Below the pieces are notes generated by a model. That model did not search any database. It was not told the DNA's origin and worked only from the letters and a program-made list of their open reading frames with translations. DNA of 64,000 bases from Onchocerca volvulus. Lineage: Eukaryota; Nematoda; Chromadorea; Rhabditida; Onchocercidae. Where the stretch lies: NCBI GenBank assembly GCA_000499405.2, contig HG738139.1, forward strand, positions 13,380,898 through 13,444,897. The letters are read 5' to 3'. The translations under genes were made by a program, and so were the position numbers. Below are positions 1 to 42,010 of the stretch, piece by piece; position 1 is the stretch's first letter; the number at the start of each line of letters is the position of its first letter.

Positions 1-489
1 AAGAAATAACACTATTTTGGGATTATTATTTAAATGAATGAAATGATTTGAAGTGAATTCAAAAACTATGTTTTTTTAAATTTCAAATATTTCCATGCAA
101 ATAGGAAGTGTAATAGCACCGAAAATATATGGATAAATGGCTTTCCAAATTTGCATGTATGACTCGTAATAATAAAGAAATGAATAAGACTTTTTATTGT
201 TTAATTTAATTCTAAAACATAGTTTAATTTCTTGATTTATCACTGATAATTTTGATTTTAATATTGAATGGTTGCTACCATTCTATTAATTTTTTAAAGT
301 AAAGGTTTCAAATCATGGTTTTGAAATTACTGTCAAAAATTTATTCGAAAAGTTTTGAAAAGAAATTAAGCGATTAGATATTCGTTCAAAGTGAAATTTT
401 GAAATAATAGTGTCTGTCGGAAAACTCCGAAAATTGAGATAAACAAGGGGTATTAAAGGTTATGAAGCGCTAATTTCAAATGCACCAAC

Positions 490-565
490 AGGCCGATAAC
501 ATTTGGGTAAACATGTTTCCCGCCAAACGCTCCAACTAAGAGGTAAACAAAGTGAGATCATGAGA
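490..565. repeat. Dispersed repeat fragment
   Basis: The segment containing AAACATGTTTCCCGCCAAA, then CGCTCC and an AAAGTGAGAT tail, closely matches about 43131-43196. Two copies 42 kb apart and outside any gene suggest a dispersed mobile-element remnant. No open frame or terminal repeat could be defined around this copy. Confidence 0.6.
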
Positions 566-2624
566 CGCCAAACTGGAGATCAGGAAAGAAGGAGGGATTC
601 CGAAAGGATATATAAGGATCGGATTTGGAGCAGAAGTATATTCTTTTTCCACTATTAGTCAACGAGCGCCTGTGTTTCTGCAGCAATCTTCTACAAGGGT
701 TTTCTACCGACATTATTGTACAGCGACCATAGTGATAATTCGATTCGAACTGACAAAACAATCCACAACAGGGATGAAAAATATTCTGTTCTACGAGCAA
801 CAAAGGAAAGAAACACATTGATTAGTCATTTGGATACTTTCGGATAATTATTTGTTCGTAATTGTTCCCCTTTTAAACTTTTTCTAACAGGAATTTTCAT
901 AGTCGCAAAAATTATTTTCACCACAATTTCAAGTACATATGTAAATTAAGACTTGATCGATGCTTTTTAAATATAGTTTATTATCATAGAAGCAATTATT
1001 TTTTTGCAATTCTGAGCATTCTGAAATGAATTAAATTGATTATTGTTTTTGATTGAATTATTTCCTCATTTTATAAATTTATCAATTATTGCGATTAAAT
1101 TGAAAAATTTTGAATCATGTATTTCGAGAATAGTATAAATTTTGTTCCCAAAAAAAAAGGTAATATAACGAACGATTATTTTAGCTTAAAATATTTTCGT
1201 ATGCATAAAGAATTAAAAATTCAATTAAAATTTTTGTTTTCAGGGGCAGATTATGTAATTGATCAAGATCATGTAATGCATATAATAAATCAAGTAATTA
1301 ATTGCTCTTCGTCTTATTAATTTTTAATTACAATTTGTTAAACGTGAAATAAATTTTGTTTTGGCATGAAATAAATTTCATTCTGCTCCATTCGAAATCT
1401 AAGTTGAACAGAGATTCTAACGTACGAATTTAAAAATTCAAATTAAATAACATTCTAGTAATATTTTTTTCAAACTTCTAATTAATTGTTCATCTTCTTT
1501 ATAATTTCTAATTACAATTTATTAAACATGAAACCGGAACGAAAGATTCTAGAATACGAACTAGTTTCATTTTTTATAAATTATGCTATTCATTATGAAG
1601 TAAAAATAGTATTTTCAAATTTCAATCCCGAAATTGATTTTAAAATCTTCAAATTAAATCATGTATCATTATGCTTATATTGATTATAAATTTTCATAAT
1701 CGATTTATTATTGATTTTGTTCAATATATACTTGATTATTCATTCATTTTAATTGTATATAAAATTAATAAAGCGCATAAATTGAAGAATAAAAATAAAG
1801 AAAGAAGAAAGATAAGAAAGATCTAATCGATCAAATCAATCTTTTTTTTTTCTAGGGATTGGAAATTCCAATGTTTTTTAAGATCTTAAATACGAAAAAT
1901 TTGGAGATAGTCAAAAAAGATATGAAATATTTTGAAAAGTTTGAAGTTATTGATTTTTTCTTTTTTTTTCGTGATGATGTTTTCATTGTGAAAGAACTCT
2001 CAGTTTTTGAAGAATTCAAATTATGTTTGTAATTTATGATCTGACTGGCGTGAATCATCTGAAGAAGGAAAATCACAAAATTTGAACTTTATTCTTTTCA
2101 TGAATAGATTGGCTATTTTAATCAAAGTGTCTTTAAAAGCCGCAAATTTTTCTGTCTTAGTTCGATCCCTTTTTTTTTTTTTATTGAAAATGTAAATTTG
2201 AACTTTTTCAACTGTTTCATCTAAAAAATAAAAGCTGAAAGTCTACCTTGTACTAATTATCTTTTATGAGCATTTTTAATAATACAGAATTTGCAAAGCA
2301 ATATCCGTTGAACTAGTTTTGCTGAAAGTGATTAGAATGAGATTACAGTTTGAGCCATAAACAATTCAATTTAATCCCTAAAATGTCCCAATTTTTAGTT
2401 GATTTTTCAAATTGAATTTCAACATTCATCATATATGGGAATTATTTGTGACACTGTAACCTTTACAATTTGACCTGACCTATAATTGCGAACGAACAAC
2501 TAATTGAACTTATAGTTATTGCTAATTTAGAACGAGTGAAAAAGTTTTTAAATTCCTAATTTCGTTCAATCGTTCATTAGAAATAGATTTTTGATTTGAA
2601 AATTGGTAAGAGCAAAAACTGTCC

Positions 2625-2978
2625 TTTTTTTACCTATTTATAATTCAAATCAATATCGGTTTGAGCTTTGAGCTAAAGGATTATTTGACGTATCCGAAGA
2701 TCTATTTTGATCTATCCAAGACGCGTGAAAGTTTATTTCACGTATCCGAAGGTGTTTGTTCATAAGATTCCTTTGAAACTTATAGCATGAATTTTTACCT
2801 ATCTATAATCCAAATCAATAAAGGTTTGAGCTTTGAGTTAAAAATTATTTGACATATCCGAAAATTAATATTTCGGATATTTCAAATAATTTTTACGTGT
2901 TTAAAGACCATAAAAGTTTATTTCACGTATTCCAAGGCATACGTTCGTAAGACTTTTTTGAAACTTACAGCACGAACT
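2625..2978. repeat. Tandem duplication, about 170-185 bp unit, two copies
   Basis: Two diverged head-to-tail copies are visible. Both begin with TTTTTACCTAT, carry GGTTTGAGCTTTGAG about 30 bases in, share GTTTATTTCACGTAT, and end near GAAACTTA(T/C)AGCA(T/C)GAA. Copy 1 covers about 2625-2791 and copy 2 about 2792-2978. Copy 2 differs mainly by carrying the palindrome at 2840-2894. No coding potential is seen. Confidence 0.8.
2840..2894. repeat. Near-perfect palindrome, 24-bp arms
   Basis: The left arm 2840-2863 (contains TTGACATATCCGAAA) and right arm 2871-2894 (contains TTTCGGATATTTCAA) are reverse complements with one mismatch in 24, around a 7-base loop. It lies inside the second copy of the tandem duplication. 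It can fold as a hairpin. Whether it is a miniature mobile element or an expansion of a shorter inverted repeat cannot be decided here. Confidence 0.85.
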
Positions 2979-5900
2979 GGAAAGAAAGCAAATCAGCATT
3001 TGAATATAAGAAATTATCGTTTGAGTATTAAAATTTCACGACCATTTCAAAAATTTTAGAGTTGACTGTTTGAAATAAAATCAGTATGTCGAAATTGTGA
3101 AAAAGTTGAAAAAAAAAGAACGAAAAGAATTGAACTCTATTAGCATATAAAGAAAAATAGCAAACAAATCTTCAGCGATTTATTTTCATTGCGAGAAATT
3201 CATGAAAGATGAAAGATGCAAGTAAAATTGCAAAAAAGCTTTTCGTAATTAAATTTACTTTCAAACGAAAATATTGCATTAGTTCATTAGAATATTTGAA
3301 AATAAAATTTGATTCATTTTAATTAAAGTTTCAGTCTTTAATTAACGGTCAAGTTTATTCAGTTTTTATTAATTCATTAAGCTTTCTTTGCCATGTCTTA
3401 TTTTTAAATATAATTGAAAAAGATTTAAACAACAAATATCTTGTTTGTACCTTCTAGTCTTAACTTGTTGATATGAGGATCGAAATTATAAATTTTGCCA
3501 ATATTTCGACATTATTTAATAATATCCTCTAGGTATAATATTTGAATTAGATTTACAGGATATGTATGACAATTTTGTTGAAAAATTCAAATGCTCCAAT
3601 TATAGAGCATTTTTTTGCAGATCAGAACTAAATGATGAAAATGTTTGATCTTGCAAAGATAATTTTTGATTAATTAAAATAGATGAAAATTTTTTAAAAA
3701 TAGATGAAAATTTTCAAATTTTTGAAGATCAAATTTTTTTTTTCAGATTTTTGAAACTTTCTCAAATGATTTGCTAAGAAATCACAAAAATTCGAACTTT
3801 TGTAGTGTGAACTGGACATTTTGGGCTCGCTTTTTCGATAATTAAATTTAGAAAAATGATTTGCATTAAAATAATTCTTGAATATATAATTCCTCCGAAA
3901 CTAATAATGCTTCAAAATGTTACCATTTTGATCATTTATCCAAAACATTTTTTAATTCGTTGTTAATTGAAAACTCTTGTGTTTAAAAAAAAAAATTAAT
4001 TATTTTAATTATTTTTTTGAGCTCGAAATTAACAATTTTTGAGTTTTTTTTTAAATTAATGAGGGGTATGAGTTTCTTTGCTTGGAAAATATGACTTGAA
4101 GTGTAGCTTCGATTTCTCATACAAATCACAAATTCTCAGCGCATCTTAACTGATATTATTACATATCCGCACAAAAAAATCGGTCGAATATCAATTGGTT
4201 TGGAAATCAAAGTGATCTGCTCAAAGTTTTTTGTTTATTATTGTATCACTTTGATTATCGGCAACATTTTACCCATAAAATTACAGTATTTCTCGTAAAT
4301 TTGTCATTAATAATATATGGAAAAAAATTATTTGCACATGACAGAATGTGCAAGAAAATATTAAATTGTAAGTTTATGGCAAAATTTTCATTTGTCAACA
4401 AAAAAGGAAATTAAAGATACTATCATCCATGTTTTCGCCTCCAACGTAGTGACAAAAAAAAAAAAAAAAAAGTGAAAAGTTCAAATTTGTTGAGAATAAA
4501 TCTCATTTGGGTCAAATTTCATTTGATTTAACAAAAATTTGCGTATATTTTTTCTAAAATGAGTGACAAGAAATTTTAACAATTCTTATAGAACGAATGT
4601 TAAGATTTTTTTTGTTTTTTACCAAAAACGTTGCGAACTTTTCGAAAACTTTTTTTTGCGAAAAATTTAAAGCAGTAGTATATAGGCGCTGTTTTGCTTT
4701 CCAGATGTTAGCAAAATTTTTTACCATATAGGATTCTCTTTTAAATTTCACTTAAAATATACAACTTATAATAGTTATTTAAGCAGGAATACTAATTACT
4801 TGTATCGCCCAGCAAAAGTTTACGGTCATTTTTTTCGGATATCGCATCATATATGATAAATTCTGGACTACTTTTAGAATTACAATGTAAGCATTAAGGT
4901 GATTGAGTTTTTTTGATATTGAAATCAATACTCGATTTTTTTATATTATGACTAATATCCGATTTTTTATTTCATGATCAATACTTTTTATATCATGATC
5001 AATATCTGATCAATATCCAACTAGTTCCTTCAACTGAAGATCATTATCCGCACTGCTAACGATTTCTAAAGATTCTGAAGATACCCAAAAACATCAGAAT
5101 CTGAAACCTTGTTCTTTTGCTCCCATTTTTTATTTCTTCTATTAATTCTATTCTTTTAAAAAGAATTTCATTTGTTAGCTACCTAAATATATAAAAATAT
5201 TGATGCTAAAAAGAAATAACAAATGGAAAATGAAAATTGAACTTTTTGTGAAGCCATTTTTCATTGTAATTTAAATTCATGGCATTAACACACACCCTTT
5301 CGTCGATAATTCTCAATTCATTTCTATTCTTATTTTCAGAAGAAATTACCTTTCATTATGAAGGTTTGTCTGTCCTTTTTATATCAAAAATATGTATCAC
5401 TCGTCATTTTCATAAACTCACGTAGCTTAAGTTCACGGAACTCACGTTAATTCACGTAGCTATATTCATTACATAACTTTCATCTTCTTATCTATTGCCA
5501 AATGTTATGGCGGTTATCCGAGAATTTCATCTCATATCGCTTTTATGATCGATAATAATTTGAAAGATGACCTTACTTGAACTTTCATTGTAATCTTTCG
5601 AAAAAATAACAATTTTTTTTCGACAAATTAATTACTGTTTTAAGGAATTATTCCTTCGTCACTTTTTCATTATTTAAGCATATTTTTGTGTTAATTCCTT
5701 ACAATCTCTTATATCATTTTCACTTTTATCATACTACATTTACTTTTTCTTGTGAAAATCTTGATATAACAATCAATTTCCAGTATTCTGTTTTATCTAA
5801 ATATCAAAAAGACAAAAATTCAATTTTCTAAAATCAATTTTAATTCCTTTTTGCAAAAAATTATGCCAAATTCATAAACATTATGGTTATTTGTATAAAA

Positions 5901-8143
5901 TTATATAACGGTTCTAACAATTAGTACGATCCGATTATTTATCTTTTCTGGCACAATTTCATGCGATAATTTTAAAATCATTGTGAATTTGTACAAAATC
6001 TTTCTCTTCGTGATGATTTTAAAGAGAAATTAGAAATTCAATCATTCCTATATCTTCGGAAATTTGTTCCAAGTTTCCACGATTTTTGTAATTTCTTCCG
6101 AAATTGCATATTTATTCGAATATTTGATCCATTTGTTAGTTCGCATCAACATCTTTGAAATATATTTATTGCTTTTCATCCTGAATTTAACATATTTATG
6201 TAACTTACTTTTTCTCTCTTGAATTATTCCAAACTCATTAATGATCCCATAAAATTCTTACTCTTCCATTCCTAAATATCATCAAAATCATCGTTTAATT
6301 TATTTTAATTTTTAATTCGGCAAACAAATTTGATATAAAAATTAACAGAGAATGGAAATTTTTGCTAAAAATTGCTGATCGCAACTTAATTGATCGAATA
6401 ATTCGTTCAAAAATGAACTCATAACAGCGGAAATAATCTATCAATTTCTGAAGGTCATCAGAAATCTTTATATAAATATAAGAAATATGTTATAAAATTT
6501 GTTTTGTTCGAAGAAAACAAATGGAAGAATTTGGAGAGAATTGTCTCTATCATTAATTTTTCTCGAACTTTTTTTTCCGTTCTTTCTTTGAATTAATTCA
6601 TTTTGATCTTTGAGATAATTCCATTAATCAGTCTACAATTGCGCTTAGATTATTGCTAGAAACAATTGTGATATTCAAAGCAAATCTTGAGAAAAAAAAT
6701 ACTTTACTTATTTACCTATTAATCGGAGGATTTGATGGTAAGTTCATATTTGAGAAGATATTTAATTGAGCAAGATGCGAATTTATTCAATATTATTTAA
6801 ATTAAAGAAATGTTACTATTATATTTTTCCTAATAATAAATATTCTATTCATTTTAAATTTTTTTATTTTTCCGCGAATTCAATTCTTATCAAAAATTAA
6901 TTTTCGATATTCCAGATTTCGTTTTTTCCTTTTTTTTTTTTTGGTTTTAAATCATTTTTATTCATATGGAAACGATGTATAATTGGAGTTTTTTTTTTTT
7001 CTTTTTTTTTTTTTGTTATTCATCCATCAAATAATACATTAAAATAAAACTTTTTTAATGTTTTGGATTAAATTATGAAAAACTTAGCCAATAAACTCTC
7101 GAGTACCAAAAAAATTTTCGTATTTCAGAAATTGGAACAATTATTATTAAATGTTACTTACTAATCAAATTCAGCATGAATTTTTACTAAAGAGAGAAAT
7201 TTGATATAATCAATTTTAGAAATAAATACCCTAAAATAACTAAAAGAAGAAAAAAAGAAAGAGATAATTATTAAAATAAGATTTTGTTTGATTTGAAGGA
7301 GGATTATTAAACTTTCTATTAAATTTTTTTTTTTTTTTAATGATGAAAATGTTGTTTGATTTGATTATTTAGCAGGAGTCTTTATTTTAAAATATCCCAA
7401 TTTGTTACTGTTTAATTTTCATATTTCATTTAAAAAATCGTTCAAAAATCAAGATAACATATAAATATCGAAAGATATATATAAAGAAAATAATAGTTAT
7501 CAGCAAATCTAAAATTGTTCATTTTAATTTATACAATTTCAGTTCATTTTAATTTCTATACACGTATTTTCATTTTTTAAAAGTAATTTTAAAAGCACAT
7601 AAAAGCACTTTCACTTGATCGCAATTGTATCTTTGCATTTTGTATGAGATAATAAAATTTAATTCATTTTATTAAATTTTTTGTGAACTTATTATTAAAC
7701 ATAAATATCTCTTAATTATTTAGAAGATGAATATTTTACTTTTTTAAATGCAAATTTAGAAATTAAAATCTCATTTCATTAATGCTTTTGAAAAAATTAA
7801 TTTGTATTTAATTCCTCAATTTATGAAAAAAATCATTTCTGAAATGAATTTAATGAAAAAATTATCACTTGATTCTCTTCTCTAGTAAGTAAGTTTGAAT
7901 ATCAAAATTTATTATAAAACAAGTTAACAATTTTTCGTCCATCATTAAATTTAATAGTAATCCATTAATTGATAAACAATCATTAAGTTCTGGAAATTTC
8001 GGATAAAAAGGAAATCCACTAAATTGCACAACTCAAAACTTTCGTTTTTATTTGTTTTTAAAATGAACTTAAACCAACAATTCTTTAATCGAATTTCTAT
8101 TTTTAAGACTAATCGATAGAAAATATCAGGGAGTTTTTAATTA

Positions 8144-11100
8144 ATGGTTTGGTTCAAAAAAATCCGTTCACCGGTTTCAAACCAAATCGATCGAGAGCGA
8201 AGAAAGAGAAAGAAGATAACATGGAACGGACGACATTTCGATCGGTCAAACATGAAACAATGTCAAACATCAATCGAAAATTTATCAGGAATGATTGATA
8301 AACAACATTTAACCGTAACAGATATAATTGATAAGGATGGAATAACCGTTACTGATAATTTTTCAATAAATTATGAAAGGTCAATTTTTTTTTCCTCAAA
8401 AAGATTTCGAATTTTTTAATTTTAATTTTAATTTTCAATTAAAATTACAAATTTTTGTTAAAAGTAAAGTACCTGTAATGGTATGCAAATTTAGCGAAAA
8501 GCAGAAAACACCACCATCATGGTTTCTGAAGCAGAAAATATTTTTTGGAACGGTATGTTTTCAATTTTATCTACTTAGGAAATTTTCAAATTTAAATGTA
8601 AAAGTTTTCGAGATGGGAAATTTTGGATGAGACTATTTGAGACCAGTAAAAAATTCGGTAAAATAAAGTTAATAATTACATAATTAAATTTAATAATTGG
8701 TATAATAAGGACATTAAGCAAATAATGCTTTTTTTTTAGGTACTTTTTCTTTAGTGATATTCAATATCAAAAAAATAGTAATAGGTACAAGTCATGATAA
8801 AATAGAAATAAGTACAAGTCATGATAAAATAGAAATAGAAACAAGTCATGATAAAAGAGAAATGGGTGCAGGTCATGATAAATTAGAAATGGGTACAAGT
8901 CATGATATATTAGAAATGGATACAAGTAAACAGGTACAAGTCATGATAAAATAGAAATAGATGCAAGTCATGATAAAAGAGAAATGGGTACAAGTCATGA
9001 TAAATTAGAAATGGGTACAAGTCATGATAAATTAGAAATGGATACAAGTAAACAGGTACAAGTCATGATAAAATAGAAACAGGTACAAGTCATGATAAAA
9101 TAGAAATAGGTACGAATTTCGCAATATAAATAGACAATATCATAGTCTCGACAATATCTAGGAATTGTGCATGGATAGATTTATTGATTAGATCATTTGT
9201 AACTTTTTTCGAATTTTCAGATCTGTGATAACAAGTTAAGCAGTAGTATCTTCTTGATTAGTCTATTATTTGCGATGCTTAGTGGTTGTAGTGTTTCATT
9301 GGTGATAATATTTCTCGGTCGTATTAAGCATATTCTCTTGACGAACGAATCAACAACTTTATCATTTCTTAACAGAATTTATCAGCAAATTATTGTCATG
9401 GCATTTGTTATTGTTTTAGCTGTTGTTGCTCATTTTGGCATGGTAATTTTTATTTAACTTTAATCAAACTTAGGCGTTAATATCTTTTTTTTTTTTAATT
9501 TCATCAAACTCAGACATAAATATGTTGCTAATAATTAGGTTAAAAGAACAGAGAAGTTGAAAAAAAAATAATTTTTAGTTTTTTTTTTTTTTGTTGAGAA
9601 TGTTGAAATATTTGAATTGATAACGATCACATTCGAGATCATGTAAACAAAAATAAACTTCTGAATTATAAATAGATTAATTATCAAATTTATCAATGCA
9701 TATATCAATTATGCTTTAGATTATCAGATCCCTGATCAATACTTTCTAATAGGGTCAAATTGTGATTTCTTCTTCAGATATGATAGATCTTTTCGATTTG
9801 TTTTGAAGTATATTTTTGGCCATCCTTGACCTTATTTACTTTAAACCACTTCTAAATTTTAGGCTATTTCAACAGATTTTACGAGAAATAATTATCAATC
9901 AGAAACTTTTTTTAATTTTTTGTAAATTTATCTTTTTTTTTTTTTTTTTTTGAAACTTATTAATAGTAGCTTTAAATTAAGCGTTTGTCAACAACAGTTT
10001 TAAGCGACAAAATTGGAAACCATTTAAAGCAACGTTATGATGGAATGCACAGCCATAAACATTTAAGCGATGAAATTATCACAAAAGTAATTGAGTAGGT
10101 TCAATTTTCTTTTGATATGATCAAAGAATTTCGATGTGATGATTAAATTATTCATTGATTTCAAAATTGCGCGTAAAAAAATGAAATTAAATTTTTTGTT
10201 TGAACTTCTAATTCGAACATTTCTTAACAGCCATGAAATTTTTCTTTGGCCTTGATAGTTTGGTAAAATAGGCAAACAATTAAATTTATATTTTTCATTA
10301 AATTTTTGATGTCCTTCGAAAACAGAAGATTGCAATAATTCACAATATCATGTAAGAACACAATTTTTATGCCTAAAAAAAAAAAAACTTGCAGGAATAT
10401 TAATTTGATAGTAAAAGGATTGGAAATTTTCGGAATGCAATGTCGAAATATTGCAATTTTCATATCATCATTGATTATTTGTTTTTGTCACGAAACTCGC
10501 TTATCATTGCTTGTATTGAGTGTTTTGTCATTGATTATAACACTAAATGTAGTTTCAAAAAAGGTGAAATTGGAAAATTTCTGAAATGAATACTAAAAAA
10601 ATTAATAAAAAGATTTCATAGATACAAAAGTTTGATGAAAATTTTCGAATTTTGAGAAATTTTTAAAATATCTATGGGAAAATAGTAATTTGTTTATAAA
10701 AGAATTTTTATTCGCTGTTAATTTTTCTCATTTACTATCTTTTTATTCTCGAATTTTTGAATTTTAATTAATGAAACTATCGTAGTTTCTCCCAGATATC
10801 ATATTTTGATCGCAAGAAAGATTAAATTTTTGTTAAAAAATTACTCTATGATTTAATTTCAACAAATCGATTGATTAATAATTACTTTTATCCTATAAAA
10901 AAATAAAATTTGTAGTTTTCGAAAAAATCAGAAATTCTTTTATCCAATAAAATTTCGCAAACGATTCAATTGGAAAAAGATTTACTATTATTGAAAACAA
11001 ATATTACAAATGATGAACGTTTGATGAAATTATCGTCGGAAGTAAGAAATTGTACTCGTTATGCTATCCTGAATCAAATCTGGAAAAATTCACATTCCGG

Positions 11101-14100
11101 AATCCTATCTTTCACCGTCTTCACATTTATCGGTTGTGGAATGCTGTAAAGTTTTCACTTTATTTTGTCAGCAACTTTTTTTTTTTTTTTCAAATTCACG
11201 TAACTCTATGAAGTCACGTAACTCCACTAAAAATCACGTAACTTTGCTAAAACTTATTTCGAATTAATTTCTTCTTTATCTAATACATCCAAAAGCTTCC
11301 AAAATATTTCATCCGGAAATTTCCAGTACCAAATACATGCATAAATTTCTAAAATATCCCATTCAAGAATTTTTAATCATAAATTTTTAATCAATTTAAT
11401 TCAATCATATTCTTATGAAATTATAGTTATGGTGGTTATCTTTTGCATACGAATCAGTTGATAAAAAAAAGCGATATATTCATTATCGTATTATCGATGG
11501 CACTTATTATAGATAGTATTTCAAGTACTTTTACAAATTACTATCAAATTCAGAAAGCTTTTCATGCCGCATTATATATTCGAAATCTTCAACAATTTGA
11601 TCATCAATGTATGGTAAGAATTCTGTGATCGATTCTTCTTGATTTTTTTCAGTATATGATAAGAATTCTGAGAGAATTTAATTTTTGATTATCAATATAT
11701 GGTAAAGATTCTGAGATTAATTCATGATAAGATACATAACAGATCAAAAAAATGATTGTGTTTTTTTTTTGATCATTTTTTTTTTTAATCCAAATTTCAT
11801 TTTACCATAATTTTGTACTTTTAAGTTAAACAAATTTGGTAGTAGACGTAATTCGATGGATGAAATAACCGTAACATTAATTACTGTCCCAGAATTCAAG
11901 AAGCCAATGATTCCATCAAAAGGAAATTCTATCGTTCGATTCATAAATGGAATTAGAAATGTTTTGCGTAATTATCATAATCATAAGTTGTTTTTTGTAA
12001 GTTTATCAGAAATATTTGAATTTTCAAATCTCACATATTTGCGTGTAACAAAGATGAAATTTATCAGGCTACGACTGAAAAGTCATTACATTAAGAAATA
12101 GATTTAATATATCGAGATTTCTTACACGAATTCACGACATTAATCATAAAATAATATCTTTAGAAATCTGTAAAATTAATTTAAAGCTACTTATTTTTCC
12201 AAAATGATTTCTGTGAAAGTTAAAAATAAGAAATTAAAATATTGAAATTTGCAATATTATAAATATTAGACATAATTGATAAACTTTTGATTGATCAATG
12301 AACTTCATGAAATGATATAAAAAGTAATTGTAATTTCAGCTGATGTGAAACAAGGCAAAGAAGATCAAGTTCAGACTAAATTATTATCTTAACTTCCGTT
12401 TGTACTTTCCTGTTTATCGTTTCAATCTTTCAATTTCGCAGTTTAAAAATTACACCTGTATTTCATATCATTTCATAAAGTCCATAGATCAATCAAAAGT
12501 TTATTATCAATTAGTTAGAATATTTGTAATATCACAAGTTTCAATATTTTTATTATCATTCCAGTTTGTTAGTTTCATCTTAGCCATTATATGCGGACTT
12601 GAACAAGCGGCATATAATATAGTTATGGGAAAAATTTTTACGGCATTTTATGAAAGAAATCCTGGTGATACGCCAAATATTCATGCCTTAACTTTTTGCG
12701 CCATTCAATTATCCGGCATTGGTTTCGCCGTTTTTATCGTACGAATCGCATCGGTCAGCATTTTTATTTCCACTTGATTGAAAATTTATTAAATCTTCAG
12801 ATGAATTCAAAATTAGAATGATAATAATAATAATATTCCGAGAAAATAAAAAATTACATCAATGGGATAGAATATTGTCTAAATATTCAACTCTTTTTTA
12901 ATGAACATAATAAAATTCAGAAAAAATTTAAGCGATATTTTGAAATATCACTCAAATATTCGGATTTGTTTTAATTATAATAAATAATTATTCATCAAAT
13001 TGTAACCAATACTATCTATATTTACAGTAACTCTATATTTACAATAACCAATTTCTAGCCTTTCTTTCATAATAAATGCAAAATAATATGTTTTGCAGAT
13101 TCAGATGAGATCAAATCTGATCAATAAGTATTCAAATTAAATTTACGATCAAATTCTCAAGTATTTTAGACTACAATAGCAGCTGTAGTATCTGAACATA
13201 TGGCTGTATCATTTCATATCATCCTATCTCGTCATTTGTTAAAAATGGCTGATAAGGAGCCATTAAGTAAGTTAAATGTCAACACTTTGGTGGATGAAAA
13301 TGTTTTACTAACATCTGAAGCAAAATCGGTAAGATATTTTTGATAGAAATATAATTAATCTATGGGGAGTAATTAAATTAAAAATTAAAACAATCATCCA
13401 ATCAATCAATCAATACAACGATTCTCCGAAAATCATAGTCAACGAACGTATTATCAATGTATCTAACAGCGGAGATACTGATATTTAGAATTTTTCAATC
13501 TGGCCAATATACAATGATACTTAAAAACCTTTTCAAACATCTTACTTTGAATTAGAAAAATGAAATTTTAATTTTAATAATCTTTTTCTGGTATATTATC
13601 GCCATTTTATGTGGAAAATAATAAAAGAATGGGAAATTTTACAGTAACTTAAATAATATTTTGTTTTTTGATGCAATAACATTACCAATTACTTTACAAT
13701 AACTTATCACTATGTATATTATAGCTTTATTACCCATATTTATCAGAATTAATGACACGCATAATTTCGGTGATAACAAATATTATTCTTGGCTTCATTT
13801 ATAGTTGGGAAGTAAGTTTCATTCGAAATTCTTTTCACTTTTATTTGGATTTCATTTGTACTAATTTGACAATGATTGATTTTTTTTTTCGTTAACAGAT
13901 AGCTTTACTCGGATTTATTTTCATTATTTTCTGTCTTTCTGTACAAATTAAAATGGAATTCGAAACATTCACCTATTGTTGCAAATGTGCGGGCGATCGA
14001 CATATTCAGGTCAATTAAAGTTTTGTATTTACTTTATAAGCATTTTAAATGCAATCATTATATTTTCATTCTTATAGCAATTTAAAGATATATCTATATC

Positions 14101-14800
14101 CATATAAATCAAAATGTAAAAAGTTCGTTGGCATTTGCCAAGCAATTTTTCAAGTTCTTCACCGATTGATTTGAAATTTTAATGCAACGTTGCATTCAAA
14201 CAGGCGCGTTTTTAAAACTTTCGGACTAACTGGAGCCGGTTCCAGTTGGTATTTTATAAGTTTATTTAAATTAAACATAGAAATGTATCAATATGTATGA
14301 ATAAATTTAATGACAAGACGAATTTAGATTTTTTTTCCAGAAAAAGACTCAACTATCAGAATCATCTGAATCTTCTATGTTTCGAGCAGTAAATTTTTTA
14401 ATTGTACAAACATCTGGATTTATATTGAAGACGATTTGCTATGCATTGACGGCTTTTATCTGTTATCACAAATACAAACATCAAACACAAGCTTTTGTGT
14501 AATATTTTGTTCAATTTTTTTTTCGTAAAATTAACTAAAAAATATTTTGCCAATAAGTGATAAGTTTCGAAAGAAATCTTATTATTCATTTGTTCCATTT
14601 TTCCACTGAAAAATGATAAATTTTTCAGAAGTATAATCGCATTATATGCTGCATGCCAAGGAGCTGTACAATTGCCAAATCTCATCCGGAAACTTTATAA
14701 ATCATGGCACGCGGTACATCGAATATTTGCTTGTATGCAGAATAAATCATCCAAAAATTGTATGCCTTCCATTTCAAGAACGATTAGGTTAGAATATTAA
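8144..14800 (+). CDS. NBD-less ABCB/P-glycoprotein-like membrane protein (14 exons)
   Basis: Exons: 8144-8379, 8465-8552, 9221-9442, 9982-10094, 10395-10563, 10916-11145, 11427-11613, 11826-11996, 12565-12753, 13170-13328, 13725-13811, 13899-14009, 14341-14498, 14629-14800. Joined phases are consistent and give 763 residues. Residues ~108-415 follow the P-glycoprotein TMD1 layout (six hydrophobic segments; NINLIVKGLEIFGMQCRNIA fits the TM3 approach). Residues ~472-740 follow TMD2 (IISVITNIILGFIYSWE and IALLGFIFIIFCLSVQIKME fit the helix 4-5 region). The ~57-residue exon at 11826 sits where NBD1 belongs, and the protein stops where NBD2 should begin. I see no Walker A, signature or Walker B motif in 8144-16160. 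Full P-glycoproteins have ~1,280 residues, so the length equals one minus two NBDs. By family it should be a multispan membrane protein; it cannot hydrolyse ATP alone. The first two exons, the exon at 9982 and the exon-9 acceptor are least certain. Confidence 0.72.
8779..9115. repeat. 27-bp minisatellite in intron 2 of the ABC-like gene
   Basis: About 11 copies of a 27-bp unit built on ACAAGTCATGATAAAATAG, with variant positions (AAAAGAG, AAATTAG). Two truncated 15-bp units reading GATACAAGTAAACAG interrupt the array at about 8921 and 9041, giving a second-order pattern of 5, 4 and 2 full units. The array lies wholly within the intron 8553-9220. A short open frame crosses part of it but shifts at the first truncated unit, so it is not treated as coding. 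Confidence 0.93.
14092..14247. mobile_element. Dispersed repeat copy in intron 12 of the ABC-like gene, Helitron-like
   Basis: The block CATATAAATCAAAATGTAAA ... CAAGTTCTTCACCGATTGAT ... TGCAACGTTGCATTC ... CAGGCGCGTTTTT matches two blocks at about 42987 and 43219. An 'accgattgatttgaaatttt' core recalls the flanks of Helitron-type elements in other animals, which is my recollection and not a database match. A short palindrome (AACTGGA-GCCGGT-TCCAGTT, 14228-14247) lies at its right side. No transposase is encoded. Confidence 0.5.
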
Positions 14801-16159
14801 ACGTAATTTAACTAAAATGCATTAAACTTAATTTAATTAAACCATTCTAAATAATTTTTCTTGACTTTCTTCATATTTGTTCCATTTCTTTTTTTTTTTA
14901 AATGTATTTTGCACATTTCAAATGAGAAACCATGTCTATTGCTTTAAGATTATCAGGTACTTGAAATGTGATTCTAAATCGACATATCAAATTATTGAAA
15001 ACTAATTGTTCTGCCAAAATCTCATACTAATTTTCCAAAAAAGCGATTAGAAGTATATTCTACAGTAGGGATAAATCATGAAATAGCTGAAAATCGCATG
15101 CATCGAAATCTGAAATCCAGAAAAATTAAGAATTTGACTTCTCCTATGCAAATTTATAAAATGAAGTATCCCGAAAACCATGCCCATATTAACTACAATT
15201 GATTTATCATATATTAATCTTAATTGTACATTCTACCTAAAAATTTCTTTTGATTAACTTATAAAAATAATGCTTGGTAAAAAAGAAAAAAAAGAACTTA
15301 AAAAACTTATTTAAAAAGCGAAAAAAAAATATTGAATTTTATTTTTTGTATCAATCTTTGATAAACATTTTTTTACTCTATTGGCTTCTGCAGCGCCAAA
15401 AGAAAACCTTAGATAAACTGATTCTTTTCTTATCAATTAGTCCATGATAAGATGTACCGAGAAAAAGAAACTGATTAATTGGTAACCATCTTTTGGAGCC
15501 AAATTTATCCCTTCTCCTTCTCCATATATTAAAAAAAAAAAAAATCTTGCAACTAAAGGAATCCTGTGTAATACCAAAACTTATTCTCAAAACTGCTAAA
15601 CATCAGCATCGTTCGCTTATCATTACGATATGAAATGAGCTTTATGAATTGACCCTTCCTTGTTTAAAACTATAAATAATAAAAATCTAACCGTATTAAA
15701 CTAATTTAACCCAAAATTTCCTCACTAGTATATTATTCGCTTCTTGAAGTTGCAACAAGCACTGACCATGTCAAGTTTATCTTACACAATACAAAGTAAA
15801 ACAAAGATCAACAATAATAGGATTGAAAATGTTGAAAACGAAAACAATATTCAAAATTCATCCAAGCAAAGAAAAGATAAGAGCTTTTCTCCAAATCTAT
15901 GAGATTTACTGACTCTTAAACTACTCTAACTTGTGTATATTCGTGCTGCGTGTAACTGGAAACAGTAGGTCTTAGTTATACAAAACATTTTTCTAATTAG
16001 CAGTTATTTTATATTTTTTATTTTTTATTGTATCTTTCCATTGTAACAAGATCAGCTCAAAAAAAAATTGGGACATTTTCCCCAGACATATGAAAAATCA
16101 TATTTTTATTATTAATATACAAAATACAAAAAGAATAGTTACTGTAAGTATCTTATATG
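14801..16159. other. Intergenic between ABC-like gene and DDX42-type gene
   Basis: I read all frames here for NBD motifs (Walker A GxxGxGK[ST], LSGGQ, Walker B) and found none. An open stretch at about 15751-15901 begins LQQALTMSSLSYTIQSK and ends at TGA 15899-15901. It follows an AAG that could be a weak acceptor, so it might be an alternative terminal exon of the ABC-like gene, but phase and acceptor support are weak. The rest is AT-rich. Confidence 0.5.
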
Positions 16160-23253
<7,094 letters not shown>

Positions 23254-33300: not shown

Positions 33301-36300
33301 ATGGCATCTCGAAGAGGTGTAATAGTTTTGCTACGTTCTTTGCATCGTCGTCCGTATTTGATATCATCATCATGCAGTGCTGCTCGAGCAGTTCAATTTT
33401 TCCATACAACTCGGTCATTTGGCAAACCGAAAATGGCAGAAAATTTCGAATTTCAGGCAGAAACAAAGGATTTGTTGGATATCGTCGCAAAATCACTTTA
33501 TTCTGATCAAGAGGTTAATTTTCTGCTACTGAATGAGTGATTCTTATTTCCTTATTTTTTCTTGAGAAAAACACTAGCAATTCAATCGTATTTTGTATTT
33601 CGATCTGAATATTCTTTTGAGATTCGTATTTTTTAGTGCAAATGAATAACTCTTTACAGCTTCTCTATTAATTTTCAAGGTTTTCATTCGGGAATTGATA
33701 TCAAATGCAAGCGATGCCCTAGAGAAGAGGCGATGCAAACATCTGGAGGCCAATGAAGATACGAATATTGCTTATGAAATCAAAATAACCACAGATGAGA
33801 ATGCACGGTTGATTATTTTCGAAGATAATGGAATTGGAATGGACAAAGAAGATTTGGTGAACTGCCTAGGGACCATAGCTAAATCAGGTGAAATATTGTT
33901 TAGGATTTTTCTGTTCTTTTCGGACTGTTATAGCTTATTTATCTCTAATTGTTTGGTTTCTTTAGTTGTTTATACTTTTTCATAAAGTTATTAGGAATAC
34001 AAACATTTTTTTGTTTTTAAAATGCATTATAATTCGGATTCCCTAGCAATTTCAAACTTATTACCAGCAGTCCTCTATGTTTGGTAAGAATAATATAGTT
34101 TGAAAGGCTACTGAGAGATTTTTTTTTTGTGATTATAGAGAAAAAAAATGAATAAATATAGTTTTCGCATAACTTAATTGTTTCAGGTCACATTCGCTTA
34201 ATTAAATATTAATGATGCTATCCTGTATTGAAGCTAATTTTAAATTAGAAAAAACTAGTTTTTAATATTATTAATTGACAATTTGATTTTATTGTTTTTG
34301 CTTGTTTATGTTTATAACTGAAACAATTTTTATTTTCCCACATCAGTTTCATCTCGTTTAGGCTCCAAAAAATTTATGGAAGAGCAGTCTTCGCAGGGCA
34401 AAATGTCCACCGAAAGTATCATTGGGCAATTCGGTGTCGGTTTCTATTCTGCGTTTATGGTTGCAAATAATGTTGTAGTGAAAACACGAAAGGAAGATAG
34501 CGATAAGGGTTATTTGTGGAAGTGGAATGGGTATGTTTGAATAAAATTTTAAATCATTTGTATTTTGCATTGAGTAGTTACAAGTAATATCTTGCGTTTG
34601 CAGAGTATATGATGATATGATTACTATTTTGTTAATTTCTTTGCAGTATGAGGCTGTTTAATGGTATATTGGAAAGTTCAAAATTAGGTGAAAATAAATT
34701 TTTTAGAGGCGATTCATATTCAGTGGAAGAAACCGATTCATTACCTGTAGGTTCACGTATTGAAGTGACACTTCGTCCGGGTGATGCAGCCGAGTTTGCA
34801 AAAAAAGATAAAGTTGTGGAAGTGATCAACAAATATTCCTACTTTATCACTTTACCGATCACAGTAAATGGAGAGCGGGTAAATACCGTGGACGCAATTT
34901 GGACAATGAATCCGAAAGAGGTGACTTCCGAAATGCATGACACTTTCTTCCGACAACTTGCCAAAACGCATTTACCTCATATGGTAAATGATCGACCGCA
35001 GTATACCATTCATTATAAGGTTACTTGAATTTATTCAATATTAGATTCATTTTATTTTCTTATTACTATTTCTGCATAACTTCCAAAAACTTCTAATCTT
35101 TTGTGTTAATGATACTGTTTGCTAAGTGCTCATTTTATCACTGCACTCACATAAAAACTATGTCAGTGCATTGGGCACATACCATATCGCATATTAAATT
35201 GTGAGTTGGAATTGTCGCATTGTACTCCGCCAGTAACTAGTTGTTATCGTTGATTAAGAAATATGAAACAAAAAAATAGTTTTCAATAACTACTTCATAG
35301 ACATACGAATGATAATATTATTTATTTGACACTTTGATGTTTGCAAACGTTTTTTATGCTAGTATATATGTAGTTCAATTAAATCGAATATTAGCAGTTC
35401 TAGCATTTGATGAGTATAACTATGAAGGATTCTTCCTTTATCTTTTTACTGGTAAAGCAATAACTAACAGTTCTGGGATTTTAATGGCGATTAAATAATG
35501 AAATTTAAAAGATTGAAATCATTTAGCATTAATAAGAGAAAGTTGTTGATATTAAGCTAATTTACTAATCAAACTGTAGATTTTTTTCTCTCTTATATTG
35601 CTGTATTTCCATTCTTTTCTCATTCGTTTGTTGACGAGATTAATTTTGAAATCAAAATTCAAAAATATCTATGTTTTAAAGGCAGATGCTCCGATAAATG
35701 TCAGATCTTTACTGTATGTTCCATCTCACAGTGTGTCGCAACTTGAGTTTGCCAGTTCGGCCGATCAATCCGGAGTATCTCTATATGCACGAAGAGTTCT
35801 TATAAAGGTTTCTTTTTTTTTTTTTTTTAACTTCTATGATTGACTAACCGATTCGCTTGCTATTAAATAATTGTAAATATAATATCAGTGCTCTGCGGTT
35901 GTACTGTACATATAACAAATAAGTCAAGTGCGGAAATTTTTGAAAATTTCCTCAGTTTGAAATATAAATAGCTTAAGTTATTTTGAATGGAAAAAAGTGA
36001 TGGGGAATTTATTAATTGAAGGAATCCTTAATTCTTTATCATATTTTTTCCTTTCAGTCAAATGCCAAGGATCTTTTACCGAGATATTTGCGTTTTCTAG
36101 TTGGTGTAGTCGATTCAGAAGATATTCCATTGAATTTGAGTCGGGAAATGCTCCAGATGGATGCTGTTCTTGTGTAATAATTTTTTTCTTTTTCGTTTGT
36201 CAAACTTTCCACCTCGTATGCATATTTCTTTTAGTAGTATAAAGATCGCAAGATTTATATATCACACTTATCTATATCTTGAAAATGCTAGTTTTTTTTT

Positions 36301-39477: not shown

Positions 39478-42010
39478 ATGCAGGCTCTACTGCAAGCATA
39501 TGAGGATATGCCTCCTGTAACGAGGATTTATACGACCGCATGTGTCTTAACGACACTCGCAGTGGTAAGTATAATGAATTAGTTGAAAGATTTTTTTGAT
39601 AAAAAATTTTCTCAATCGTTTCGAAATAGCTGAAATTTCTCTTTCATAATTATATTTATTTATAATTAATGTGCATGCATTGTTTTTTTTTTAATCGTTC
39701 TTTTAGTTCCAGTTTATTAAAGGTGCAGTCTTTAATCGTCCACTTCATTTTTTGGTTTTGAATATAAAAAAGACATCATAATTTTGAAATTGCTTAGCAT
39801 CTCTTAAACTTTATGATTCGGAAATTATAAATGAGTTTTCATGCGATTTTATTAAATTTGTTAAAACGATAGTGAATTACAGTGATTTTAATTCCAGCAA
39901 TTGGACGTTGTTACTCCGTTTCATTTATATTTTAATTGGGATTTAATTATTTATGATTATCAAGTAAGTTACTTTTTTCTACAAATGAGATATGATTTAC
40001 AGCATTTGAAGTTTTTTAAATTAGTCTTCGTCATGATGAATGCAATTAAGAAATGAAACTTTCAGCTATATTGAAATATATGCTATAAAATATTAAACTT
40101 TAAAATGGAACTTGACAAATAATTTTTGGTTAGAATTTATTAACATCAATTAATGAAAAGTTGTATAAATTCACTAATAGATTATCATTTGCCGTTAGCG
40201 AAATATTTTCTTAATTATTGCAATATTTGATTAAATTTCTGACTTTTTTTATTTATATTTTTAAATTGTTTCCAGTTTTGGCGACTGTTGACATCGTTTT
40301 GTTTCTTTGGCTCATTCGGATTCAGTTTTTTGTTCAATATGATTTTTACGTATCGATATTGCATGATGCTTGAGGAGGGTTCGTTTCGTGGGCGGCGTGC
40401 TGATTTCGCTTTTATGTTCATCTTTGGAGCACTTTTTATGGTAATATTTTGTACATTGGCCTCTTTAAGGTTGGATTATATTTTTATCAAGTTATCGAAT
40501 AATTTGACAATCTTTATGTTTTAAATGTATTTGTTCATGTTTAAATTATTGATTTATGTTTATATACCAAAATAGTGGAAGGAAGACATTTTGTTTTTTC
40601 GATCAGATTTTATGAAGATTTATGTAATTTTCTGAGCTCGCATCACGCGTTTCGAAAGAATGTTCCGTATGATAAAAGTTCGAAATGTTAAGTGAGGTTT
40701 CGAATGTGCTATTTATAGTAGATTTTCAACTATTTTAAAATAAATTATTCAGTATTCAATAGATATTATGATATTTCTTACTTTATTTTGCGGAATTGTT
40801 TATTCAGAGTAAGTTTAAGTTTGCTGTTTTTGTCATTTGACAAATTTGAAAAGTTTGGTTGCTTTTTAATGTTTTCTGAATTTTTTTAAAATGGATTAAA
40901 TTAGGAAAAATTGTTTCAAAGAATCAGTTAATGAAGAGTATGGTTTTATGCAGGACAGAACATGATTTGACATGCTTCGATTTACTTATCCAGATTTACA
41001 ACAGTTTTGAAGATCATTTTCATTTGCTAAGTTGAATGGAAATCGTAGACATTGTAAGGATATAAATACAAGATATTTTGTAGGAAAAACTTTCCATATC
41101 CGATAAAGATGCAATTGACATACTCCAATCTTTATAATATAGTTGTTAATGATAAATTCGAATCTATTTGCTGTAACTTATTAATGTTTTAGATTATCTG
41201 TGGTACATTTGTACATATGGTGTTTCTTGGACAGGCTTTTACCATTATGCTTGTTTATGTTTGGAGCAGACGGAATCCATACGTACGCATGAATTTTTTT
41301 GGCGTCCTTAGCTTCAATGCTCCCTATTTACCATGGGTGCTACTTTTATTCTCGCTGCTTCTCGGTAACAATGCTATCGTTGATTTCATGGGTGAGTTGA
41401 ATTCAAATAATTTTATATACTTAATTTTTAGCTTTAAAAATTTTTCTGGAAAATTTCTTGTAAACTTCAATGCATTCTTTCTGATTTTTAATAAATTTGT
41501 GAATTTCGGATTTGAACTAGTTTTATGATTAATTTAGAATGTTAACATTTATTTACTTATTTGATTCATTATTGATGATGGCGTTAGTTCTAATAAATGA
41601 ATTATTCACCATGCATTTAAGATATGAAAATCGTTATGGTAACTTTTAATATGTAACATTCACCAAGTACTTTTCGTCATTTACTGAAACGTGTTTTCAG
41701 TGGTGCTATAACTTTAAGCCAGATATATTTTATTCTTACTATCTAGGAGATCGATTAAATTAACTCGTAAAATTTATGATTCCATAATGACTTTATATTT
41801 TGTTTCAAAACAAAATTTTTAGGAATAGCATGTGGCCATTTCTATTTCTTTTTGGAAGATGTGTTTCCATTACAACAGAATGGTTTTCGTGTTCTACAAA
41901 CACCTCAACTGTTGAAGTGGCTGCTAGATCCGGTTCCTATTGAACCCGTTGATGTAGATGAACGACCTGGTGGTTTTAACTGGGGTGAACAAGCGCCTAG
42001 AGTTGAATAG
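39478..42010 (+). CDS. der-2: Derlin-2-type ER-associated degradation protein (5 exons)
   Basis: Exons: 39478-39564, 39898-39963, 40276-40440, 41193-41391, 41823-42010. Phases match, giving 234 residues against about 239 for human Derlin-2. The start [18 protein letters not shown] and the WR motif in [11 protein letters not shown] are Derlin hallmarks. Hydrophobic segments lie around residues 18-36, 55-80, 95-113, 120-140 and 150-175, in line with a rhomboid-pseudoprotease fold; no catalytic Ser-His pair is expected. The tail [17 protein letters not shown] is hydrophilic and lacks a clear SHP p97-binding box. Derlins act in retrotranslocation of misfolded proteins from the ER. The gene follows TRAP1 as in C. 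elegans, to my recollection. Confidence 0.94.

Follow-up and report, generated by a model that had tools for sequence, protein, structure and literature searches.

P-glycoproteins (ABCB exporters) carry two ABC_membrane transmembrane domains (TMDs) in a single chain, TMD1 followed by TMD2, together with two nucleotide-binding domains (NBDs) with Walker A, signature, and Walker B motifs and conserved loops that couple the TMDs to the NBDs. In many bacterial ABC transporters TMD-only subunits work with a separate NBD protein. The SbmA/BacA peptide transporters have an ABC-exporter-like fold, lack NBDs, and are functional; they are bacterial, proton-driven homodimers with a single TMD. The TMDs of human P-glycoprotein are reported to still bind drug and to reach the cell surface without NBDs. 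Here we describe a gene of Onchocerca volvulus that we consider, with a probability of roughly 60%, to be an NBD-less derivative of a P-glycoprotein still maintained as a coding gene. The predicted protein would resemble SbmA/BacA in having an ABC-exporter-type membrane fold without NBDs. Three Pfam families were listed for it at E ≤ 10, none of them the SbmA/BacA family that Pfam presumably includes.

The gene occupies positions 8144-14800 on the + strand of the window, that is, of the whole 64-kb stretch of DNA analyzed, which lies within contig C4, one of the 115 contigs that make up the 94.7-Mb genome. Its 15 exons total 2280 nt including the stop codon (14798-14800) and encode 759 amino acids. 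All 14 introns are of the GT..AG type with consistent phases. Splice sites were set by eye, with the general sequence of P-glycoprotein proteins as a guide, and were settled before any paralogue of the same genome was read. Three P-glycoprotein paralogues of this genome, modeled ab initio and each containing two Walker A motifs, are referred to below as A, C, and D. The original prediction of a gene open in frame stands; its count of 14 exons and 763 residues becomes 15 exons and 759 residues with the addition of a 26-nt microexon. The exons are as follows.

8144..8379, + strand: exon 1, N-terminal cytosolic region with the start codon; missed by the gene finder
8495..8552, + strand: exon 2, end of the N-terminal region; both ends found by the gene finder
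9221..9442, + strand: exon 3, TM1 and TM2 (hydrophobic segments 110-128 and 154-172); gene-finder support; the intron on its 3' side matches an intron of paralogue D
9982..10086, + strand: exon 4, intracellular loop 1; AAG acceptor; missed by the gene finder
10326..10351, + strand: exon 5, 26-nt microexon; poor acceptor score; missed by the gene finder
10395..10563, + strand: exon 6, TM3 and TM4; support from gene finder and intron comparison
10916..11145, + strand: exon 7, intracellular loop 2 plus the greater part of TM5; start recovered by the gene finder
11427..11613, + strand: exon 8, TM6 and end of TMD1; exon end recovered by the gene finder
11826..11996, + strand: exon 9, 57-codon linker at the NBD1 position; weak alignment with the linker of paralogue A; start recovered by the gene finder
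12565..12753, + strand: exon 10, TM7 and TM8; support from gene finder and intron comparison
13170..13328, + strand: exon 11, intracellular loop 3; support from gene finder and intron comparison
13725..13811, + strand: exon 12, TM9; missed by the gene finder
13899..14009, + strand: exon 13, TM10 plus the first part of intracellular loop 4; support from gene finder and intron comparison
14341..14498, + strand: exon 14, shortened intracellular loop 4 and TM11; support from gene finder and intron comparison
14629..14800, + strand: exon 15, TM12 and stop codon; start recovered by the gene finder

The microexon at 10326-10351 was added because exon 4 ends in phase 0, whereas the exon starting at 10395 requires two bases carried over. 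The sequence directly 3' of it is GTAAGAAC. The phase-2 intron on the 3' side of the microexon is common to the models of A, C, and D, which supports the assignment; the intron on its 5' side has no counterpart in these models. A self-trained, homology-free gene finder agreed with the model at both ends for 7 of the 15 exons and at a single end for another 4; it missed exons 1, 4, 5, and 12, placed five extra exons inside the gene, and merged neighboring genes. Because it was trained partly on this window, it provides only partial support. The result given is that of a second training, the first having been discarded for over-predicting tiny exons. Scores from a matrix built from 79 paralogue introns were uneven: the acceptor of intron 4, that of intron 8, and the donor of intron 14 were poor, reaching at most roughly the median score of AG or GT dinucleotides in the window.

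Several introns contain repeats. A 27-bp minisatellite in intron 2 (8772-9113) is open in frame in stretches, giving TSHDKIEIG-like 9-residue repeats; a genome search that skips simple repeats showed no other copy. Intron 9 contains a 323-bp inverted repeat (12232-12554) between the linker exon and TMD2. Its RNA is predicted to form a long hairpin (-97.7 kcal/mol; z -11.35, with 0 of 100 shuffles as good), and no other genomic copy was shown by a search that skips very common words. This element could give rise to small RNAs or be the relic of an inverted duplication. An Rfam search of window positions 1-20000 gave no match. Further along the window are an HSP90-like gene (PF00183, HATPase) and a Derlin-like gene (PF04511), at 33650-35028 and 41193-41528, both within 30 kb of the NBD-less gene, which could serve as synteny anchors.

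The spliced 759-residue protein matched the ABC_membrane profile with a score of 37.3 bits (E 3.3e-9; cut-off 28). Scored separately, the linker plus TMD2 reached 28.5 bits and TMD1 27.0 bits, the latter just below the 28-bit cut-off. P-glycoprotein A scored 248.3 bits with the same profile, indicating that the NBD-less protein is very divergent. All 39 sequences listed in a PDB search at E ≤ 10 were named as ABC transporters, the best being C. elegans PGP-1 (E 0.0062), as were all 42 listed in a search with the linker plus TMD2. The nearest of the three paralogue models is A (C5:7.527-7.537 Mb). Without composition-based statistics, residues 67-369 matched residues 50-325 of A (20% identity over 311 columns, E 2e-10) and residues 419-746 matched residues 673-1028 (16% over 358 columns, E 3e-7); with these statistics on, the TMD1 match had an E of 1.6e-8 and the TMD2 match an E of 0.12, which is not significant. 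The second match begins within the linker, at a point where A also has a linker. The order N-terminal stretch, TMD1, linker, TMD2 is shared with A and with C. elegans PGP-1 (PDB 4f4c). The profile match and the collinear match to A bear out the earlier reading of the gene as containing both TMDs of an ABCB exporter, with TMD1 preceding TMD2 in one chain. ABC_membrane regions are likewise present in the models at C2:1.617 Mb and C3:21.88 Mb, which we take to be ABCB-type half transporters. These have one TMD and an NBD, whereas the present protein has two unlike TMDs, which correspond in order to TMD1 and TMD2 of full P-glycoproteins.

Other searches with the NBD-less protein gave only short matches to paralogue C (best E 0.009) and no match at E ≤ 10 to paralogue D. 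A search of the whole genome with the spliced protein returned 14 pieces of the gene itself and one chance-level row (E 0.75), with no second copy or close paralogue. None of the places listed in a genome-wide ABC_membrane search lay within the window, so exon-by-exon profile scans overlook this gene. A search of NCBIfam found no family for the protein, and PADLOC, run with the first 411 residues, gave one weak unrelated match. The 19 pattern matches in prokaryotic contigs (bacteria and archaea) included no relative, a result that is uninformative on worms.

Hydropathy analysis gave 12 segments over 1.35, six on either side of the linker. Twelve or more hydrophobic segments were found in 1 of 300 shuffles of the protein but in 58 of 300 sequences of random codons of intron composition. 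Since random AT-rich coding sequence often gives 12 segments, the count by itself proves little, and it was dropped as stand-alone evidence.

The strongest evidence of descent comes from intron positions. The alignment of both TMDs with paralogues A, C, and D relied on residues only, and 13 of the 14 introns fall in aligned stretches. Eight of the 13 coincide in exact column and phase with an intron of A, C, or D, and seven with an intron of A. None of 20,000 random intron placements was as good at the exact column in either half. At a tolerance of ±1 column the coincidence had p values of 0.0005 (TMD1) and 0.00005 (TMD2), and at ±3 columns of 0.010 and 0.0026, respectively. The models of A, C, and D were made ab initio and have flaws (A apparently has no TM2 exon), which should blur intron matches, not create them. 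With the ABC_membrane match, the collinear TMDs, and the common introns, the proposed P-glycoprotein ancestry of the NBD-less gene can be regarded as well supported.

The two NBDs of a P-glycoprotein, with their Walker A, signature, and Walker B motifs, were found neither in the protein nor in the flanking introns nor elsewhere in the window. No ABC_tran match was obtained with the spliced 759-residue protein, or in introns 8 and 9 and the region 14798-16160, each searched in its three + strand frames. A home-made NBD profile, built from six NBDs of P-glycoproteins A, C, and D, gave seven rows with a best E of 1.3 over all six frames of the 64-kb window. As a positive control, the same profile found nine pieces at E ≤ 1.7e-10 in the locus of paralogue A. 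A genome-wide ABC_tran search listed none within the window (19 of 77 candidates scored). The original prediction had placed a 57-codon linker exon (11826-11996) where NBD1 would be, between introns of 212 bp (left) and 568 bp (right), and these figures are exact. An NBD concealed in intron 8 or 9 was ruled out, there being no ABC_tran match in their 212 and 568 bp, and the absence of both NBDs, likewise predicted, is confirmed for the protein, for these introns, for the 1.36 kb downstream, and, with the NBD profile, for the window. The end of exon 15 lies close to the phase-0 intron that precedes NBD2 in the models of A, C, and D. Two further candidates for TMD-only genes, at C2:19.49 Mb and C3:10.72 Mb, were rejected because NBD sequence is present in or beside the models; by our own reading, made by eye rather than by family search, these look ABCC-like.

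An artifact, in which NBD exons were missed in the gene model or lost in assembly, is improbable. There is a single assembly, and the model was made manually and recovered in part by the gene finder, which leaves room for error. However, introns 8 and 9 match no NBD, the NBD profile is silent over 64 kb yet detects the exons of a paralogue, and two separate losses would be required.

The chief rival to a maintained gene is a young pseudogene, a divergent P-glycoprotein whose NBD exons were lost recently and in which stops have not yet gathered. We consider this unlikely, though a serious contender. It is consistent with the single copy found in the genome, with the weak splice sites, and with the low GC content at codon positions 1 and 2, but the disruptions of a pseudogene are absent: no stop or frameshift occurs in 759 codons over 15 exons, and phases are kept over 14 introns. 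The coding sequence was evolved neutrally in silico toward intron composition, indels not being counted. Under this drift 167 of 400 runs were still without a stop at 0.005 substitutions per site and 58 of 400 at 0.01; 19 of 400 were open at 0.02 and 1 of 400 at 0.03. Given the lack of stops, drift free of constraint can have amounted to no more than about 2% substitutions per site. In one run, the TMD coding sequence of A decayed to 20% identity acquired 38 stops in 628 codons. GC content at the three codon positions is 0.355/0.329/0.271, compared with 0.234 in introns. In A, C, and D the values for the TMDs are 0.42-0.46 at position 1 and 0.36-0.39 at position 2; the NBD-less gene lies below these values and has thus shifted toward AT, as would be expected from faster or relaxed evolution. 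Taken together, the drift and GC figures indicate that any loss of constraint was recent; they give no date for the loss of the NBDs.

A further indication comes from the loops that couple the TMDs to the NBDs. With stretch borders chosen in the coordinates of A after the alignment had been viewed, and with TM1-TM2 excluded (A and C are incomplete there), the columns identical in A and C are retained in 5/24, 1/15, 1/15, and 0/4 cases in the four loops (7/58 in all), compared with 22/74 in the helices (Fisher p 0.019). Loop 1 is the best conserved of nine stretches between A and C (24/44); in the NBD-less protein 7/42 positions there are identical to A. Gaps fill 28 of the 54 columns of loop 4 in the alignment to A. 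Counting against such erosion, loops (28/180) and helices (53/316) show the same plain identity to A (p 0.80). The NBD-coupling loops are not conserved as in a P-glycoprotein, and the protein differs from a full P-glycoprotein also in the absence of both NBDs and in a TMD identity of ~18%. Intron 13 was considered as a place for the missing residues of loop 4 and rejected, since it consists largely of a dispersed repeat and no fitting reading frame was seen. This repeat (14080-14290, ~130-150 bp) has at least 42 genomic matches including itself (40 of 994 candidates scored), the others being 78-89% identical.

Erosion of the coupling loops argues that loss of the NBDs is not brand new. Time appears to have elapsed since the loss, as the 28-column gap in loop 4 also suggests, and this stands against a young pseudogene. 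The eroded loops also make it unlikely that an NBD acts in trans. A TMD-only subunit working with a separate NBD protein would fit the TMD cores, which are still open, and the genome does have other ABC proteins. Nevertheless, the loops at which such a partner would dock keep few of the A/C-identical columns, loop 4 is short, and no NBD was found in the 64-kb window; we regard this arrangement as very improbable. On balance, the protein seems to have had a period of evolution in which NBDs were already gone and the frame stayed open. That the gene has been retained, as was originally proposed, gains only indirect support, from the open frames, the codon-position composition, and the eroded coupling loops. 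The roles suggested originally, as a receptor, partner, or dominant-negative protein, are speculative.

The simplest history of the maintained gene begins with an old P-glycoprotein (ABCB) duplicate. NBD1 may have been lost when the exons between TM6 and the linker were deleted between two introns, and NBD2 by truncation after TM12, an order and manner of loss that we infer. The membrane core would have remained an open, spliceable gene after these losses. Having no Walker A, signature, or Walker B motifs, the product should not hydrolyze ATP, and, lacking a motor and with its coupling loops worn, it is not expected to go through the pump cycle of an ABC transporter. If made, it would most probably be a membrane protein that works without ATP: at most, lipophilic ligands would be retained in its TMD cavity rather than pumped, making it a sink or sensor, or would equilibrate passively. 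The linker contains an RRNS stretch, which presumably fits a protein-kinase-A site. A functional non-transporter is a plausible reading. A ligand-holding role taken singly is doubtful. We offer as a tentative proposal, somewhat less probable than its opposite, that selection may have kept a eukaryotic ABC exporter fold without an ATPase, derived from a fused four-domain transporter and serving as an ATP-independent sink, sensor, or facilitator for lipophiles.

For annotation, P-glycoprotein counts for this worm could miss or miscount the NBD-less gene. If the gene is expressed, it would mean that the membrane core of a P-glycoprotein can persist without its motor, and it would provide a natural test of the function of the core itself.
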